DNA of 33,983 bases. Origin: a virus. Below the pieces are notes generated by a model. That model saw only the letters and a list, made by a program, of their open reading frames with translations. It ran no database searches and was not told where the DNA came from. The DNA lies in IMG/VR virus record IMGVR_UViG_3300050117_000051, positions 1-33,983 of that record. One strand, 5' to 3'. Made by a program: the position numbers and the translations under genes. Shown piece after piece: positions 5,716-25,129 of this stretch (within the stretch, counting starts at the first letter, position 1; each line of letters starts with the position of its first letter).

Positions 5716-7734
5716 CTACAATTGGGCAAGGTCGGGGTGATTCCGGTCCCGCCGTTGCGCCGCGATCGCGCCAGGCGAACGCCAGCGCCGCGGCCCGAGC
5801 GCGTCGAAGTTGTCCATGCGCGCAGGCTTCGGTTCTTCCTTCGGCTTCCGGTTAATCCCGCTCCACGGGTCACTCGCCGCAATCATGGCAAGACACAACG
5901 CGTCAACGTGGTCGTCGTGTCCGTTGTCGTTCTTTATCGCGCCGCTGGTCGTGCGGCGCACGCTTTGCAACTCCGACAGCGTTTTGAGGTCCGGCACAAT
6001 CACGGTTGGCTCCGGTTTGCCGGTCATCGGGTCGCGGTGGCAGATAGTAGAGACGAGCCAGTCGTCCATAATCGGGCGCGTCTTGAACGTCGTTTCCCAG
6101 CCAGGGTATATCTTCTCGCCCGGTTCAGGGAAGTCCACGTCCAGGCGTTTCCACTGGTAGTAGTTACGCATCCCCGCATCCACGAGGCGTCGCACGACCG
6201 CGTAGCCGGACGCCTGCAGTTCGACGCAGGTGTAAGCGTAGCCGTACCACTTGTAGAGCAGCATCAACTGATCGCAGAAGGTAAACTCGTCCACGCGCGC
6301 TTCATACGTTGCGACCACCTTGAAGTCTCGCGCGCGAAGCACTTGGCACACCCACGCATCGGCGTCCAGCGAGCCGTACCGAATGCCGCCGGTGTCCACG
6401 CCAATCGCGTACTGTTCGCTGGTTTCCGGCGGTGCGTACAGGCGCAGTTCCTGCCAGTCGGAATGGAACGTGGTGTCGATACCGATGCGACCGCCTTCTT
6501 CGCGCAGGATACCGCGCGCAATCGGTTCCTGCCCGTGTTTTACGACGGCAGTGAGGCAGTCGCGATCGAACGGCGACTTCTCGTAGTTCACAAACGATTC
6601 GCTGACCGTCGTTGAATATTCCTGGTCGAACACCAGTAGCTTCAACTCTTGGCTGGCTTGCTGGAATGAGTCGATCTTCTTGCGGCGCCAGAACAGCCGA
6701 TATGGCGACACGCCCATTTCTTGCAGCCGCATCTCGCTCTCGCGCCCGTACTTCGGGTCGTCTCCAATCTGCGTTAGGAACTCCGCGAGTTGCGCCTTCG
6801 ATATGCGCTCGCACTCGCCGCGCGGGTTCTCGTTGCGCGTCGTGTATTCGTCGTGCTGAAAGAAGGGAGAGTACGCGAGAATCCAACCTGCATCGGGCCG
6901 TTCCGGTTCTCCGAGCTTGCCGGCGAATATCTCTTCGGGCGTAATGTTCACCGTCGTCTCAAGGCGGCGCACCCACTTTGGGTTCGCTTCGACCGCTTCC
7001 ATTACCAGCGTATGGTACTCGTCGCCCATCCCGTTCGGCGTTGTGTCGATAATCACGCACGACGCTTTCCGTAACCCCATCGCAGAGAGCAAGCCGGTGT
7101 TCACTTCTTCTTTGCGCGCATCGTCCATGAAGGCGTACTCAGAGATAATGACGAGGTGCGGCGTTGTGCCACGCATACCGGACGGCACGGTTATCTGTAT
7201 TTCGGAGTTTAATCCCGGGTCATACATACGCTGCTTGGGGTTGGGGTTATCGAAGAAGAGATGCTTGAGGTTTTGGATTCGGCGCTTCGGTTGCATGTGC
7301 ATCGGCAGGCTATTGACCATTCCTGCGAGCACAGTCGCCTTTGCCATCGCTACGTCCTCGTCGTTGACGAGAATCATCGACTTATGGTTGGGGTGCAGCG
7401 AGTTGTACAGCGCTTCGCCTAGGCACCACGTCGTGCCGCCGGTTTGGCGCGACTTATCTTCGAGCACGCGTTGCGCTAGTCCACGGCGGCGTTGGCTTTC
7501 GAGGCAGACGCTGAGGATAGCTTGGAATACGAACGGCTTGATGCGGACCAGTTCGCCGTCCTTGTCGGCAACCTTGAAATAGTTCGTGATCGCGAACGGC
7601 GCGGAGTTCATCATTTGCGTCGTCTCGGCCAGGCGCCAGGCGTTTACCTCATGCGGCTCGGGCGCAGCGCGACCGTACTTCTCATGGAAGAAGTCTCCCA
7701 CAGATAGCAACTCTGACGGAGCGATTAGACTCAT
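5716..7734 (-). CDS. terL: terminase large subunit (DNA-packaging ATPase/nuclease)
   Basis: 672 residues from the ATG at 7734, which overlaps the previous stop codon (ATGA). The ATPase domain shows a Walker A-like KSRQTGGTTW (94-103), a Walker B-like HLVIISEYAF (193-202) and a coupling motif DTTPNGMGDEY (230-240). The nuclease domain shows AIGVDTGG with the first acidic residue (D447), YTCVELQASGY (501-511), and a C-terminal GHDDHVDALCLAM (605-617) with the metal-binding Asp cluster. The enzyme cuts concatemers and pumps DNA into the prohead through the portal. The Walker B reads SE rather than DE, a tolerated variation. This is the most secure assignment in the window. Confidence 0.97.
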   Translation of the reverse strand: MSLIAPSELLSVGDFFHEKYGRAAPEPHEVNAWRLAETTQMMNSAPFAITNYFKVADKDGELVRIKPFVFQAILSVCLESQRRRGLAQRVLEDKSRQTGGTTWCLGEALYNSLHPNHKSMILVNDEDVAMAKATVLAGMVNSLPMHMQPKRRIQNLKHLFFDNPNPKQRMYDPGLNSEIQITVPSGMRGTTPHLVIISEYAFMDDARKEEVNTGLLSAMGLRKASCVIIDTTPNGMGDEYHTLVMEAVEANPKWVRRLETTVNITPEEIFAGKLGEPERPDAGWILAYSPFFQHDEYTTRNENPRGECERISKAQLAEFLTQIGDDPKYGRESEMRLQEMGVSPYRLFWRRKKIDSFQQASQELKLLVFDQEYSTTVSESFVNYEKSPFDRDCLTAVVKHGQEPIARGILREEGGRIGIDTTFHSDWQELRLYAPPETSEQYAIGVDTGGIRYGSLDADAWVCQVLRARDFKVVATYEARVDEFTFCDQLMLLYKWYGYAYTCVELQASGYAVVRRLVDAGMRNYYQWKRLDVDFPEPGEKIYPGWETTFKTRPIMDDWLVSTICHRDPMTGKPEPTVIVPDLKTLSELQSVRRTTSGAIKNDNGHDDHVDALCLAMIAASDPWSGINRKPKEEPKPARMDNFDALGPRRWRSPGAIAAQRRDRNHPDLAQL

Positions 7735-15869: not shown

Positions 15870-16636
15870 TCGAGATCGAAGCGCGGATTCGCAACGCCGC
15901 AACCGATAAAACGCTGCGCGAGGCGGCACGCGTTATCTGGGCACGCGAGGCCGTGAAGCTGTTCGAGGACCAGCCGCGAACGGGGCTCCGCATTTCGGAC
16001 TCGGGGAATTGCGTGCGCCAGGTTTACGGCAAGCTCAACGGCAACCCCGAGGCGTTCGATTCGCACGTTCAGTTGTTCAACCTCGATGAGGGTACTCTGA
16101 CCGGCTGTTGGTGGGCGTGTCTACTCGCGGCCTCGCTCGAAGCGGATGGCTACGTTGTCGAGTTGGAGCCGGAAGTCACGCTTGACGGAATCCCCGGTCA
16201 CATCGACCTGTATTACACCTGGCCTAGCTATTTACAGGACGTTACCGGGAAAGCGTTTTTTGAAGATACCGGCGTTGTGGAGTTTAAGAAAACTGGCTCA
16301 TGGACCGCTAGCCCGCAACGCTGGCACGTTCTACAACTCGGTTCCTACCTCGCAGCGAAAGGCGTCGAAGATGGCGCGATCGTTAGCATCGCCCCCGCCG
16401 CGAAGGTGAACCAGATTGCCGTAACGTGGTACAAGCTGAGCGACTTGCAGTTCGACGTTGCCGTGGAGTGGGAGCGGCTTTCGGCGGCGCTCGGACCCGT
16501 CGAGCCGACCGAGGATGCCGTCGAGGCGTTTCGGTGCAAGGGCTGCCCCGTAGTCCGCTGCCAGCGCAACCCGGCCTTCGTCACTGATGGCCTACTAGAA
16601 AAGTTGGAGGAAAGCTATGCCGCAAGAAACGGTTGA
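15866..16636 (+). CDS. Cas4/RecB-like PD-(D/E)XK nuclease with putative Fe-S cysteines
   Basis: 256 residues from a GTG that overlaps the previous stop. The PD-(D/E)XK core is visible as IPGHIDLYY (D114), VVEFKK (E139, K141) and the QLGSYL helix (Q157, Y161). One Cys in GNCVRQVYG (C49) and three at the end in CKGCPVVRC (C224, C227, C232) match the four cysteines that hold an iron-sulfur cluster in Cas4 and AddB-type nucleases. Such enzymes trim DNA ends to make single strands for annealing. It overlaps the RecT-like gene by 20 bases, so the two probably form one recombination module. No Cas1 or CRISPR repeats are present. Confidence 0.85.
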   Translation: MIEIEARIRNAATDKTLREAARVIWAREAVKLFEDQPRTGLRISDSGNCVRQVYGKLNGNPEAFDSHVQLFNLDEGTLTGCWWACLLAASLEADGYVVELEPEVTLDGIPGHIDLYYTWPSYLQDVTGKAFFEDTGVVEFKKTGSWTASPQRWHVLQLGSYLAAKGVEDGAIVSIAPAAKVNQIAVTWYKLSDLQFDVAVEWERLSAALGPVEPTEDAVEAFRCKGCPVVRCQRNPAFVTDGLLEKLEESYAARNG

Positions 16637-17573
16637 GAGTCGCGCGCTAGCGATTCGCGAGGAACACGCTGGCGCTATCGCAATCGGCGAAAGCAGGCCG
16701 CTTAAATACTCGCTGCCAGAGCTAAAGCAAATCGGCGAAATGATGTTCGCCAGCGGAATGTTCCGCGACCTGAAATCCGTACCGCAAGCGATGGTGAAGA
16801 TTCTTGCCGGCGGCGAGTTAGGCTACGGCCCGTTTCATTCGCTGACCGCCTTCCACGTCATCGAGGGGAAGCCGGTCGAAACGAGCGGCGAGATTACTGC
16901 GCGCATTAAGCGTAGCGGGAAGTATCGCCTTGAGTCGTACTTCATCGACAAGAACGGGGAGCACCTCGACCCGGTAAAAACCAAGGCCACCGAAACGAAC
17001 GGCTGCGTCGTGGTTATCCACGAACGGCTCGACGGAACGTGGTTCGCGCTCGAACCGGTCGTCTTTACGAAGGAGGACGCGGCGACGGCGGGGCTTCTCG
17101 GGAAAGACGTTTGGAAGAAGTACCTTCGTAATATGCTGTTCGCTCGGGCGCTGACGAACGCCGCGCGCTTCCACTGCGCCGATATTTTTGGCGGGCCGAT
17201 CTATACGCCCGACGAGTTGGGCGCGGAGGTTACGATCGACAGCGAAGGCTTCGAGTCGCTCGTGCCGCCCCCGCAGGCGCGGGAAGCGCAGACGATCGAG
17301 CAGGCCCCGGCACCGCATGTGCCAATCGACGCTGATACGCCTGAAGCGCGGGCCGCCGGCATCAAAGCGGTTCATACGTTGGCGCGCAAGCACGGGGTCG
17401 ATCTCGATTCGCCCACCTCGCCGTATCGCAAAATCTTAATCGAACACTTCGACATCTTCTGCGACCCCGAAGTGGAGGTTTCCTCGAAGGCGCTGAGCGC
17501 GCCGGAACTGCGGGAGCTGTACCGGCTCGTGACGGAGCACATCCGCGAGCGCGACAAGGCTGGCGCCGCATGA
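16617..17573 (+). CDS. recT: RecT-like single-strand annealing protein
   Basis: 318 residues, with GGAGGAAAGCT before the ATG. The middle matches phage RecT-type proteins: MMFASGMFRD (about 42-51), QAMVKILAGGELGYGPFHSL, then FHVIEGKPVETSGEI, RSGKYRLESY and, later, KKYLRNMLFARALTNAAR. These proteins coat single-stranded DNA and anneal complementary strands, driving recombination-dependent replication and concatemer formation. The partner nuclease is encoded just upstream. The last 100 residues are specific to this protein and include an Ala/Pro linker and a helical end. Confidence 0.85.
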   Translation: MPQETVESRALAIREEHAGAIAIGESRPLKYSLPELKQIGEMMFASGMFRDLKSVPQAMVKILAGGELGYGPFHSLTAFHVIEGKPVETSGEITARIKRSGKYRLESYFIDKNGEHLDPVKTKATETNGCVVVIHERLDGTWFALEPVVFTKEDAATAGLLGKDVWKKYLRNMLFARALTNAARFHCADIFGGPIYTPDELGAEVTIDSEGFESLVPPPQAREAQTIEQAPAPHVPIDADTPEARAAGIKAVHTLARKHGVDLDSPTSPYRKILIEHFDIFCDPEVEVSSKALSAPELRELYRLVTEHIRERDKAGAA

Positions 17574-20982: not shown

Positions 20983-21023
20983 AGGGAACCTCCGCGGGGC
21001 ACCCGGGCGAGGGTGGACCGTGA
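20979..21023 (+). CDS. very short linking ORF (14 aa)
   Basis: ATGA overlap with the preceding lipoprotein gene and TGATG junction with the HNH gene. MKGTSAGHPGEGGP has no fold. It is probably a coupling element, if translated at all. Confidence 0.3.
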   Translation: MKGTSAGHPGEGGP

Positions 21024-21397
21024 TGGATAAGCCGAGCCTTACACCTGGCGCGAGGAAAAAACTTGCAGTAGAGCAACGCTTTTTGCAGTTATGCGAACCA
21101 ATCCCCGAAGGCTTCGGTTGCTGGGAATGGCTTGGCGTTGTTGGCCGAAAAGGCTACGGGAAAATAAGAATCGACCAGCGGATGGTCTCAGCGCACCGCG
21201 TCTCATGGAATCTACACTTTGGCGACCCCGGGGATTTATGGGTGCTTCATCGTTGCGATAATCCGACGTGCGTGAACCCGGCGCACCTATTTCTCGGAAC
21301 CCATGCCGACAATATGCAGGATATGGCGCGGAAGGGGCGTTCGACAAAGGGGCGCAAGATAGCGCAACCGCGACTCGCGCGGAAGCCTCGGCTATGA
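21023..21397 (+). CDS. HNH homing-type endonuclease (HNH_3)
   Basis: 124 residues from the ATG at 21023 (a GTG one codon earlier is possible). CWEWLGVVGRKGYGKIRI and the strand/His SAHRVSW are followed by the catalytic WVLHRCDNPTCVNPAHLFLG (H76, N85, H88, with Cys 78 and 83 placed to bind zinc). HNH enzymes nick or cut DNA; free-standing ones in phages often act as mobile homing endonucleases. The C-terminal 30 residues are basic. ATGA overlap with the following gene. Confidence 0.9.
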   Translation: MDKPSLTPGARKKLAVEQRFLQLCEPIPEGFGCWEWLGVVGRKGYGKIRIDQRMVSAHRVSWNLHFGDPGDLWVLHRCDNPTCVNPAHLFLGTHADNMQDMARKGRSTKGRKIAQPRLARKPRL

Positions 21398-22288: not shown

Positions 22289-22644
22289 GTAGCGAGGAGA
22301 TTTGCAAAGAGTTGCGCGGTCGGCTGGGTGTCTATTGCGCAGCGAATAAAGCGGCCGATCTTATCGAATCCCAAGCCTCGGAGCTTGCCGCCCTTCGTAG
22401 CAACGTCGCCGAGCTAGGGCGGGAGCTTTTCACGGGCGAGAAAGAGGCAGAGCTTGTACGGTTAAGGGGGCTCGAAAGCCGAGCGAAAGAATTGACCTCG
22501 ATAGAGTTCGCGTTGGAGGTCGCAGCAAAACTCACCTGGACGATTCGCGCAGGCCCGAAAGCGCCGCTCGAACCCGACCATCTTAGCAACGCGGAAGAGT
22601 TGCGAAACGCTATCCGCGCCATACTCTCGGAGGAAACCCAGTGA
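22279..22644 (+). CDS. coiled-coil hypothetical protein (121 aa)
   Basis: MEVSSEEICKELRGRLGVYC, then a long helical segment with coiled-coil spacing (ALRSNVAELGRELFTGEKEA) and a C-terminal helix ending RAILSEETQ. Two segments, 40 and 27 bp long, are repeated exactly in the next gene, so the two are paralogues. Confidence 0.7.
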   Translation: MEVSSEEICKELRGRLGVYCAANKAADLIESQASELAALRSNVAELGRELFTGEKEAELVRLRGLESRAKELTSIEFALEVAAKLTWTIRAGPKAPLEPDHLSNAEELRNAIRAILSEETQ

Positions 22645-22817
22645 ACATCGCCGAGCTGCTTTTCATGGGCGAGAAAGAGGCAGAGCTTGTACGGTTAAGG
22701 GGGCTCAAAACGAAGCTGCTCGCCTTTTCGATGACGCCGCCACCAAACGGGCACCCCGGTACGTTCGCTAAGTGGCGGAACCAACTGCGTGCCATACTCT
22801 CGGAGGAAACCCAGTGA
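22434..22817 (+). repeat. two exact direct repeats shared by adjacent paralogues
   Basis: 40 bp at 22434-22473 recur at 22667-22706, and 27 bp at 22618-22644 (including the stop codon) recur at 22791-22817. Order and orientation are the same, so one gene arose by duplication of the other with loss of intervening sequence. Confidence 0.9.
22641..22817 (+). CDS. shortened paralogue of the preceding gene (58 aa)
   Basis: GTG at 22641 overlaps the previous stop. It shares GEKEAELVRLRGL and RAILSEETQ with its neighbour at identical DNA sequence, but the region between is different and shorter (FSMTPPPNGHPGTFAKWRN). GTGA overlap with the next gene. Confidence 0.65.
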   Translation: MNIAELLFMGEKEAELVRLRGLKTKLLAFSMTPPPNGHPGTFAKWRNQLRAILSEETQ

Positions 22818-22930
22818 GTGTCACCGTTCAGCGAATCGAGGTCGGCTACGAGTACGGCTGCGCTAAGTGCGGGCGCTGGTTCAGAGTCTTTCAAAACTTT
22901 ATGCACCACGAATGCGTAGGCAACCCATGA
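22814..22930 (+). CDS. single zinc-finger peptide (38 aa)
   Basis: MSVTVQRIEVGYEYGCAKCG, then FMHHEC: a C-x2-C...H-x(2)-C arrangement suited to one zinc ion. GTG start overlapping the previous stop; the end overlaps the next ATG. Function unknown. Confidence 0.6.
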   Translation: MSVTVQRIEVGYEYGCAKCGRWFRVFQNFMHHECVGNP

Positions 22931-23929: not shown

Positions 23930-24111
23930 ATCCAGCGTCATTGTTAGGAATCGCTTTGTCCGTTCAATCGGCGTGGGCAGCGGTATACTTTGGGGTACTT
24001 GCGGCTCGCGAAGGCGGAATACCGCACGATTTTTGCCTCCATATTTCCATCGGTTATACTGTCGCGACATTCGTTTTCGCGGCCCTCGGGAAGTTATCAT
24101 GGGGCCTCTAA
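23926..24111 (+). CDS. small membrane protein with two helices (61 aa)
   Basis: MNPASLLGIALSVQSAWAAV and SIGYTVATFVFAALGKL give two hydrophobic segments separated by a short loop (REGGIPHDFC). Two helices with short ends would suit a holin-like or exclusion protein, but it sits in the early region. GTG start overlapping the previous stop. Confidence 0.65.
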   Translation: MNPASLLGIALSVQSAWAAVYFGVLAAREGGIPHDFCLHISIGYTVATFVFAALGKLSWGL

Positions 24112-24791
24112 CAGCTACCGAGCTTGCCGAGATTGCGAAGCGGGCCGAAGATGCTACTCCGACCGTCAAGCCGAGCGAAATGCGGTTCGCCGCCGCGAGC
24201 ATCGAGTGCGAAGAACTCGCCAACTGCGTAAAGTGCGTGCTGTGCAAAGCGGCGGACCTTCTTACGGACGGCGCGTTCGAGCTTGAGCTACTCTGCGAAG
24301 CCCGCACCGACATTCCTCGCCTTCTCGCAGACTTACGCGCCGCCCGCGAAACCTTGAAACGCCTTGCGGAGCCCGATGGGGCGGTGGTGGATGGTGGGCG
24401 TGTTCGGAAAACCATCGAAGCAATGAAAGCGTACCTTACCTTCTACGAAATGGACGACCCGCTCAACCCGCCAACACTACGGCAGCGGGCAGCGCGAGAG
24501 CAAGGTGCAACGCGGCTACGGCTTTGGATTTACGGGCTCGAAAGCGCGTTTCCGAACACCGAGCCGCGCACACCGGAAGAAGCGGAGGCCATCAAAGCAG
24601 CCGCAGCGATGGCAGGCGCGGAACACGCAAGCGCGGATGCACCACGGGCCGATAGTTCAACGGTAGAACAACCGACTCTTAATCGGGAAACGGGTAACGC
24701 TTCGGGTCGCGAACCGGAGCGTCGAGTGTTCGACTCACCCTCGGCCCCAAAGAAACACGCAAGCGCGGATGCCGCCGTGAGGGAGGAATGA
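24099..24791 (+). CDS. helical hypothetical protein whose 3' end contains a tRNA-like sequence (230 aa)
   Basis: MGPLTATELAEIAKRAEDAT starts a helical protein with two Cys pairs (CVKCVLC) and ALKRLAEPDG-type spacing; ATELAEIAKRA...LLADLRAARETL is seen in many uncharacterised phage proteins. Residues 1-175 look like normal coding sequence. From about residue 180 the frame reads through a tRNA-like element (24646-24748), giving SSTVEQPTLN, which is typical of a translated tRNA and not of a protein. A direct repeat encoding HASADA lies on each side. Removing the 132-bp unit would keep the frame and leave a short natural end. Confidence 0.7.
   Translation: MGPLTATELAEIAKRAEDATPTVKPSEMRFAAASIECEELANCVKCVLCKAADLLTDGAFELELLCEARTDIPRLLADLRAARETLKRLAEPDGAVVDGGRVRKTIEAMKAYLTFYEMDDPLNPPTLRQRAAREQGATRLRLWIYGLESAFPNTEPRTPEEAEAIKAAAAMAGAEHASADAPRADSSTVEQPTLNRETGNASGREPERRVFDSPSAPKKHASADAAVREE
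24622..24772 (+). repeat. 19-bp direct repeats flanking the tRNA-like element
   Basis: AACACGCAAGCGCGGATGC occurs at 24622-24640 and 24754-24772. The period is 132 bases, a multiple of three, so the protein frame is kept. Part of the repeat (GCGGATGCCGCC) occurs again near 25097. The arrangement suggests insertion or duplication by recombination between short repeats. Confidence 0.9.
24646..24748 (+). tRNA. tRNA-Lys(CUU)-like gene with an extra hairpin in the T-arm
   Basis: A perfect 7-bp acceptor stem (GGGCCGA 24646-24652 with TCGGCCC 24741-24747), TA at positions 8-9, D-arm GTTC/GAAC with GG in the loop, anticodon arm CCGA-CTCTTAA-TCGG with anticodon CTT (24678-24680), and a T-loop TTCGACT before CACCC. 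Between GGGT (24692-24695) and the G before the T-loop there are 32 extra bases that fold into a hairpin with a perfect ACGCT/AGCGT base. Without them the T-stem would be a perfect GGGTG/CACCC and the gene about 71 nt. As it stands, the 5' T-stem (GAGTG) has one mismatch. No CCA is encoded. It may be decayed, or processed in an unusual way. Confidence 0.65.
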
Positions 24792-25129
24792 AGGTGGATG
24801 GTTCGTGGCTCGCCGCGCTGGCGATTGGGCCGGATGAGCGTGACGACCCTTACGGGCCTTTCACGCCTGAGGAGTGCGCGCTCGGCGAAGCGTTGTACGA
24901 GCGCATCATGCACGAACGGCGCTGTGTCGCCGAGGACAGGCACAAGCCTGGCGCCTACTGCTCTCGCTGGCATGAAGTGCGCCGTCAATTCTCGTGGTAT
25001 GCAGACGCGCGCGAACTGCTGCGAGCGGCTCAGTTTTGCCTTCGAGATGCGGCCAAAAGCGGCGAAGCAACACCCTCGCCCATCGGAAACGTCGGAGCGG
25101 ATGCCGCCAGCGGGGAGAGGGAGGCGTGA
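24788..25129 (+). CDS. hypothetical early protein (113 aa)
   Basis: MKVDGSWLAALAIGPDERDD, then FTPEECALGEALYERIMHER and a helical YADARELLRAAQFCLRDA. Two Cys and several His lie in the middle (HERRCVAEDRH). The tail repeats the ADAA motif seen in the gene upstream. ATGA before and GTGA after. No family recognised. Confidence 0.7.
   Translation: MKVDGSWLAALAIGPDERDDPYGPFTPEECALGEALYERIMHERRCVAEDRHKPGAYCSRWHEVRRQFSWYADARELLRAAQFCLRDAAKSGEATPSPIGNVGADAASGEREA

Follow-up and report, generated by a model that had tools for sequence, protein, structure and literature searches.

Genomic setting of the element

The window examined here, the whole 33,983-nucleotide stretch of IMG/VR virus record IMGVR_UViG_3300050117_000051, is a tailed-phage record that encodes a portal protein, a terminase, a RecT-like annealing protein (positions 16617-17573), a RusA-like resolvase, an HNH endonuclease (21020-21397) and a DNA methyltransferase. 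The phage is described as a soil-type bacteriophage, and its gene content (portal, terminase, RecT and RusA-like proteins) points to a bacterial host. Its terminase has relatives only in distant phages, with less than 30% identity among the matches listed, and no relatives of the portal protein were found.

A 230-amino acid ORF occupies positions 24099-24791 of the plus strand, and its stop codon overlaps the start codon of the next gene at 24788 to form an ATGA junction. There is no PHROG or Pfam match for the product of this ORF, and no relatives of the downstream gene were found. The 3′ end of the ORF holds a tRNA-like element (24646-24748, plus strand) that is bounded by two exact 19-bp direct repeats, AACACGCAAGCGCGGATGC, located at 24622-24640 (R1) and 24754-24772 (R2) on the plus strand. 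The repeats are spaced by 132 bp, or 44 codons, and the reading frame stays open through the element. Thus, the in-frame position of the element and the exact repeats 132 bases apart, both reported in a first-pass annotation made from the sequence letters, are confirmed. In DNA with 61% G+C, an uninterrupted frame across the unit carries little weight as evidence.

There are additional direct repeats at gene ends in this mosaic early region, specifically at 22425-22826 and at 24765-24785 / 25097-25117 (53 bp at 96%, 56 bp at 79% and 21 bp at 81% identity). R1 and R2 are consistent with recombination at short homologies, the mosaic region around them having several similar repeats.

A nearly intact tRNA-Lys(CUU) core

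The tRNA model of Rfam, RF00005, matches positions 24646-24748 over its full length (model positions 1-71) with a score of 48.6 bits and an E-value of 1.3e-7, well above the gathering score of 29 bits for this family. It is the sole RNA-family match of the whole window; hits to frameshift-element families were rejected, having scores far under their respective thresholds. A full-length covariance match of this strength is not chance, and it answers the test that the first-pass annotation had named against its own proposal, namely a tRNA score no higher than background.

The 5′ part of the element (24646-24695, plus strand) comprises the 5′ strand of the acceptor stem, the D-arm, the anticodon arm, the sequence AAAC and a first T-stem strand, GGGT. 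The 3′ part (24728-24748, plus strand) carries G53, the T-loop TTCGACT, the sequence CACCC, the acceptor strand TCGGCCC and the discriminator C73, with no CCA encoded at the 3′ end. All seven acceptor pairs and all four D-stem pairs can form, as can four of the five pairs of the anticodon stem, wherein the exception is an A.G apposition at 27-43. Both the T-loop and the D-loop (AACGGTA) are canonical, and the anticodon CUU (CTT in DNA) sits in a canonical 7-nucleotide loop, CTCTTAA, flanked by CCGA and TCGG. The earlier description of a canonical acceptor stem, D-arm, anticodon arm and T-loop is therefore borne out, with the 27-43 position and C73 as the only exceptions to intact stems and invariant bases in the 71-nucleotide core. 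The lack of an encoded CCA is ordinary for tRNA genes of many bacteria. The discriminator is a point against an efficient lysine tRNA, because class II LysRS uses A73 (PMC9976931).

The 32-nucleotide segment and its predicted fold

Between the two parts of the tRNA lie 32 extra nucleotides (24696-24727, plus strand), the borders of which are ambiguous by two nucleotides (GT). This segment, AACGCTTCGGGTCGCGAACCGGAGCGTCGAGT, stands between the variable loop and the T-loop and contains a perfect 9-bp hairpin (ACGCTTCGG paired with CCGGAGCGT, closing the loop GTCGCGAA), followed by a C and then by GAGT, which can act as a substitute T-stem strand. The hairpin has a predicted energy of -15.8 kcal/mol, a value reached by only 147 of 20,000 shuffled sequences (0.7%) and by 92 of 11,317 32-mers drawn from the window (0.8%).

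This insert can be read in two ways. If it interrupts the T-stem (GGGT, the 32 nucleotides, then G), its removal restores a perfect tRNA. In default mode ARAGORN calls no tRNA in the whole window while the segment is present, and after its deletion reports a 71-nucleotide tRNA-Lys(ctt) with a perfect T-stem, GGGTG/CACCC. Alternatively, in the Infernal alignment the insert enlarges the variable region rather than the T-stem, and a substitute T-stem, GAGTG/CACCC, forms with four of five pairs. Thus, the first-pass annotation was correct that 32 extra bases fold into a hairpin and that the T-stem would be perfect without them. Its placement of these bases in the T-arm agrees with the deletion result but is at odds with the covariance model, which assigns them to the variable region. 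That alternative placement, the 2-nucleotide border ambiguity, C73 and the unencoded CCA did not figure in the annotation.

The minimum-energy fold predicted for the element (-43.5 kcal/mol) matches neither reading. In this structure, GGGT pairs with ACCC and GAGT pairs with ACTC around the hairpin, and the 7-nucleotide T-loop is abolished, so that an uninterrupted 5-bp T-stem with its 7-nucleotide loop is perfect only when the segment is absent. A cloverleaf with a long variable arm, as in class II tRNAs, includes the hairpin and four of the five pairs in its substitute T-stem, but it is predicted to be 6 kcal/mol less stable than the best fold. The predicted misfolding counts against function without settling the question, because the fold energies ignore contacts between the D-loop and the T-loop.

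Probable gain of the unit in a mosaic region

Three IMG/VR records (L005, L006 and L010) are true DNA relatives of this phage. They have blocks in common with the window in its mosaic region of small genes, with sharp borders and with many blocks 88-100% identical. DNA related to the host gene is present in L005 (matching 24359-24616 at 98%) and in L006 (24105-24321 at 90%). The comparison with relatives lacking the unit that the first-pass annotation had proposed is thus available, and none of the three records has a tRNA match. In L005, the gene homologous to the host gene terminates shortly before the start of the unit (MAGEAR*). Elsewhere in L005 there is one copy of the repeat module GCGATGGCAGGTGCGGAACACGCAAGCGC, with the 33 bp around R1 recurring once (6692-6724, 94%) and no tRNA. 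A search of viral contigs for the repeat motif yielded this one true relative (L005/L007); two further matches were rejected as chance. An empty site, where a single repeat would stand in the same surroundings, was not found.

Since the relatives are devoid of the tRNA, the L005 gene stops upstream of the unit and the repeat module is single in L005, the unit would most simply be a gain in the lineage of the window, within a region recombining at short homologies. By this comparison of sequences, the element is probably a captured tRNA cassette that is specific to this lineage and lodged at the hypervariable end of a gene. Of the suggested mobile or duplicated cassette, a tRNA-derived unit that lies between repeats and is missing from relatives is well supported, whereas no evidence was seen that the repeat-bounded unit moves by itself.

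Captured tRNA or decaying remnant

We consider the best explanation, with a probability of roughly one-half, to be that a tRNA-Lys(CUU) was captured by this phage lineage, that its variable/T region is enlarged by the 32-nucleotide hairpin segment and that it now lies within the variable 3′ portion of an early, accessory gene. Full function of the element is about an even matter. The unit may have entered by short-homology or illegitimate recombination that left the 19-bp duplication, within a mosaic region, the phage having its own RecT-like annealing protein. The element would then be transcribed with the early operon, RNase P and 3′ nucleases would excise it, and the CCA would come from the host. 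In the folded tRNA, GAGTG/CACCC would act as the T-stem and the hairpin would project as a long variable arm. If functional, the element would supply a tRNA that reads AAG, the lysine codon preferred by this phage (186 AAG versus 73 AAA in 13 main genes).

Several observations favour this account. The Rfam match is full length and the 71-nucleotide core is intact save for 27-43 and C73. In the covariance model the insert counts as an enlargement of the variable region, and the hairpin is matched in less than 1% of shuffled sequences or window 32-mers. Capture is favoured by the mosaic region of the relatives, which has no tRNA, and by the RecT-like protein, the HNH endonuclease and the short repeats nearby. 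A captured tRNA with a long arm is also in keeping with the preference for AAG, with the mycobacteriophage Fionnbharth and with phage tRNA-Lys(UUU) and tRNA-Ile(UAU) precedents that have long variable arms (see below). Against a functional tRNA stand the predicted loss of the T-loop, C73, the existence of a single sequence and the relatives without the element.

The same observations lend credence to a different outcome, which we regard as a tentative but serious alternative. A recently captured tRNA may have had its T-arm broken by the 32-nucleotide insertion and become an inert pseudo-tRNA, tolerated because the 132-bp unit preserves both the reading frame and the ATGA overlap. The misfolded T-loop, the discriminator C73, the absence of the element from three related records and the failure of pattern searches to find a second example of the insert are all compatible with such decay. 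However, no stem of the 71-nucleotide core has decayed, and the insert is well structured and supplies a nearly complete substitute T-stem. An expanded arm and a decayed tRNA, two of the three possibilities raised in the first-pass annotation, are inseparable on one sequence. The element is a real, one-off oddity: a long-armed tRNA of an unusual sort, or else one heading to decay.

The third possibility, wherein the segment is an intron excised from a precursor to yield a standard 71-nucleotide tRNA, draws on the perfect tRNA-Lys(CUU) that ARAGORN reports after deletion, and T-arm introns occur in tRNAs of archaea and of the red alga Cyanidioschyzon (PMC9602550). The minimum-energy fold nevertheless has no bulge-helix-bulge (a 4-bp helix with a 3-nucleotide bulge on either side) at the exon junctions, and 32 nucleotides is far below the size of a group I intron. 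In addition, the gene content indicates a bacterial host, and no splicing enzyme for such tRNA introns is known in bacteria. Removal of the segment is accordingly very unlikely. Equally improbable is that selection acts solely on a C-terminal peptide tail and that the tRNA likeness is an evolutionary leftover: the unit can be read through in frame, its 132 bp amounting to whole codons, but the tail is dispensable, as the L005 homologue ends upstream, and a 44-codon open frame is not rare at 61% G+C.

Searches for other copies

No second tRNA-Lys(CUU) bearing this insert was found by pattern in viral contigs or in 84,980 genomes, an absence that holds at the sensitivity of exact scans that may omit the nearest records of the window. 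The element is known from a single sequence. With the D-arm and the CUU anticodon fixed, no similarly enlarged tRNA was found in viral contigs. Three viral contigs match the exact 5′ half, and all three were rejected as a jumbo-phage tRNA with the same 5′ half and a GGC anticodon. In genome contigs, the two matches to long-insert tRNA-Lys patterns were ordinary tRNAs, each with a chance match behind it. Plasmids gave only short, weak tRNA-like matches, which were set aside. GenBank phages searched with the DNA around the element gave no match, and the element alone retrieved ordinary tRNA 5′ halves, one tRNA-like gene of a huge phage and nothing else.

When the D-arm was not fixed, the long-insert tRNA-Lys pattern gave 20 matches in viral contigs. 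Approximately 10 distinct sequences among them are tRNA-Lys(UUU) with long variable arms, and none of the 20 resembles the insert of the window.

Comparison with other enlarged phage tRNAs

The tRNA-Lys of Fionnbharth overlaps the 3′ end of gene 37, lengthens its protein product and supports a tRNA-dependent form of lysogeny (PMC10865867). As in Fionnbharth, a lone tRNA-Lys lies here over the 3′ end of a protein gene, the C-terminus of which is longer than in a relative without the tRNA. In Fionnbharth the tRNA, a tRNA-Lys(UUU) of standard form, lies on the strand opposite to the gene and is linked to an integrase and attP, whereas the element of the window is on the same strand as its gene and has an extra hairpin. 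There is no integrase among the approximately 28 window proteins scanned with PHROGs, which come from the larger ORFs of a record that may be incomplete, and thus a role in tRNA-dependent lysogeny is not supported.

The approximately 10 phage tRNA-Lys(UUU) genes are 88-94 nucleotides in length with variable arms like those of class II tRNAs, and several lie beside ordinary tRNA-Lys genes (L145 3518-3607, L146 8995-9088, L147 7400-7487, L148 14471-14561, L150 4273-4362, L151 2195-2285, L155 311-403, L156 2157-2248, L161 2241-2331 and L162 93-182). Viral tRNA-Ile(UAU) genes of 91-93 nucleotides have a hairpin in the variable region (L033, L034, L035, L050, L073, L099, L101 and L150), and tRNAs with a CUA anticodon and a long variable arm are found in L069 and L131. 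Like class II tRNAs, including these lysine and isoleucine examples, the element has a hairpin between the anticodon stem and the T-stem in an otherwise standard cloverleaf. It differs in having a standard D-arm, approximately 36 nucleotides in the variable region, clearly more than the phage examples have (103 nucleotides overall as opposed to 88-94), and an unpaired linker of 8-9 nucleotides that holds a second copy of the T-stem strand.

If expressed, the element would show what size of hairpin is tolerated at the tRNA elbow and how tRNAs are acquired one by one at gene ends. The amino acid carried by the long-armed lysine and isoleucine tRNAs would be the more testable question. A doubtful speculation is that phages of several lineages build long-armed lysine tRNAs on purpose (this CUU element as well as the UUU tRNAs of L145-L162), with the arm altering which synthetase charges them or shielding them from host defences that cut tRNAs, such that lysine codons would be read in a phage-specific manner.

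The huge-phage gene retrieved from GenBank (LR756511, a 595-kb genome; L165 145-265) resembles the element in having a full tRNA match (47.9 bits), a similar 5′ half and a large insert in the V/T region. Its insert of approximately 51 nucleotides is unrelated in sequence, its anticodon is AUU and its fold is less stable.

Other tRNA-like elements are repeated in Lactobacillus-type prophages (L025-L142, for example L040; L167 1501-1593 is from Lactobacillus phage Sha1). There are as many as three of them in 10 kb, and the Sha1 copy carries no annotated feature. Their acceptor, D-arm and T-arm are constant (GCGAGCGTAGTTCAACGGTAGAAC ... GCAGGTTCGACTCCTGCCGCTCGC), and these surround a variable middle of 35-50 nucleotides without a clear anticodon arm. 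Finally, three large phage contigs carry full tRNAs scoring 52-62 bits that have inserts of approximately 45 nucleotides in the anticodon loop (L083 4593-4709, L101 10933-11052 and L075 1599-1712), which are possibly small introns.
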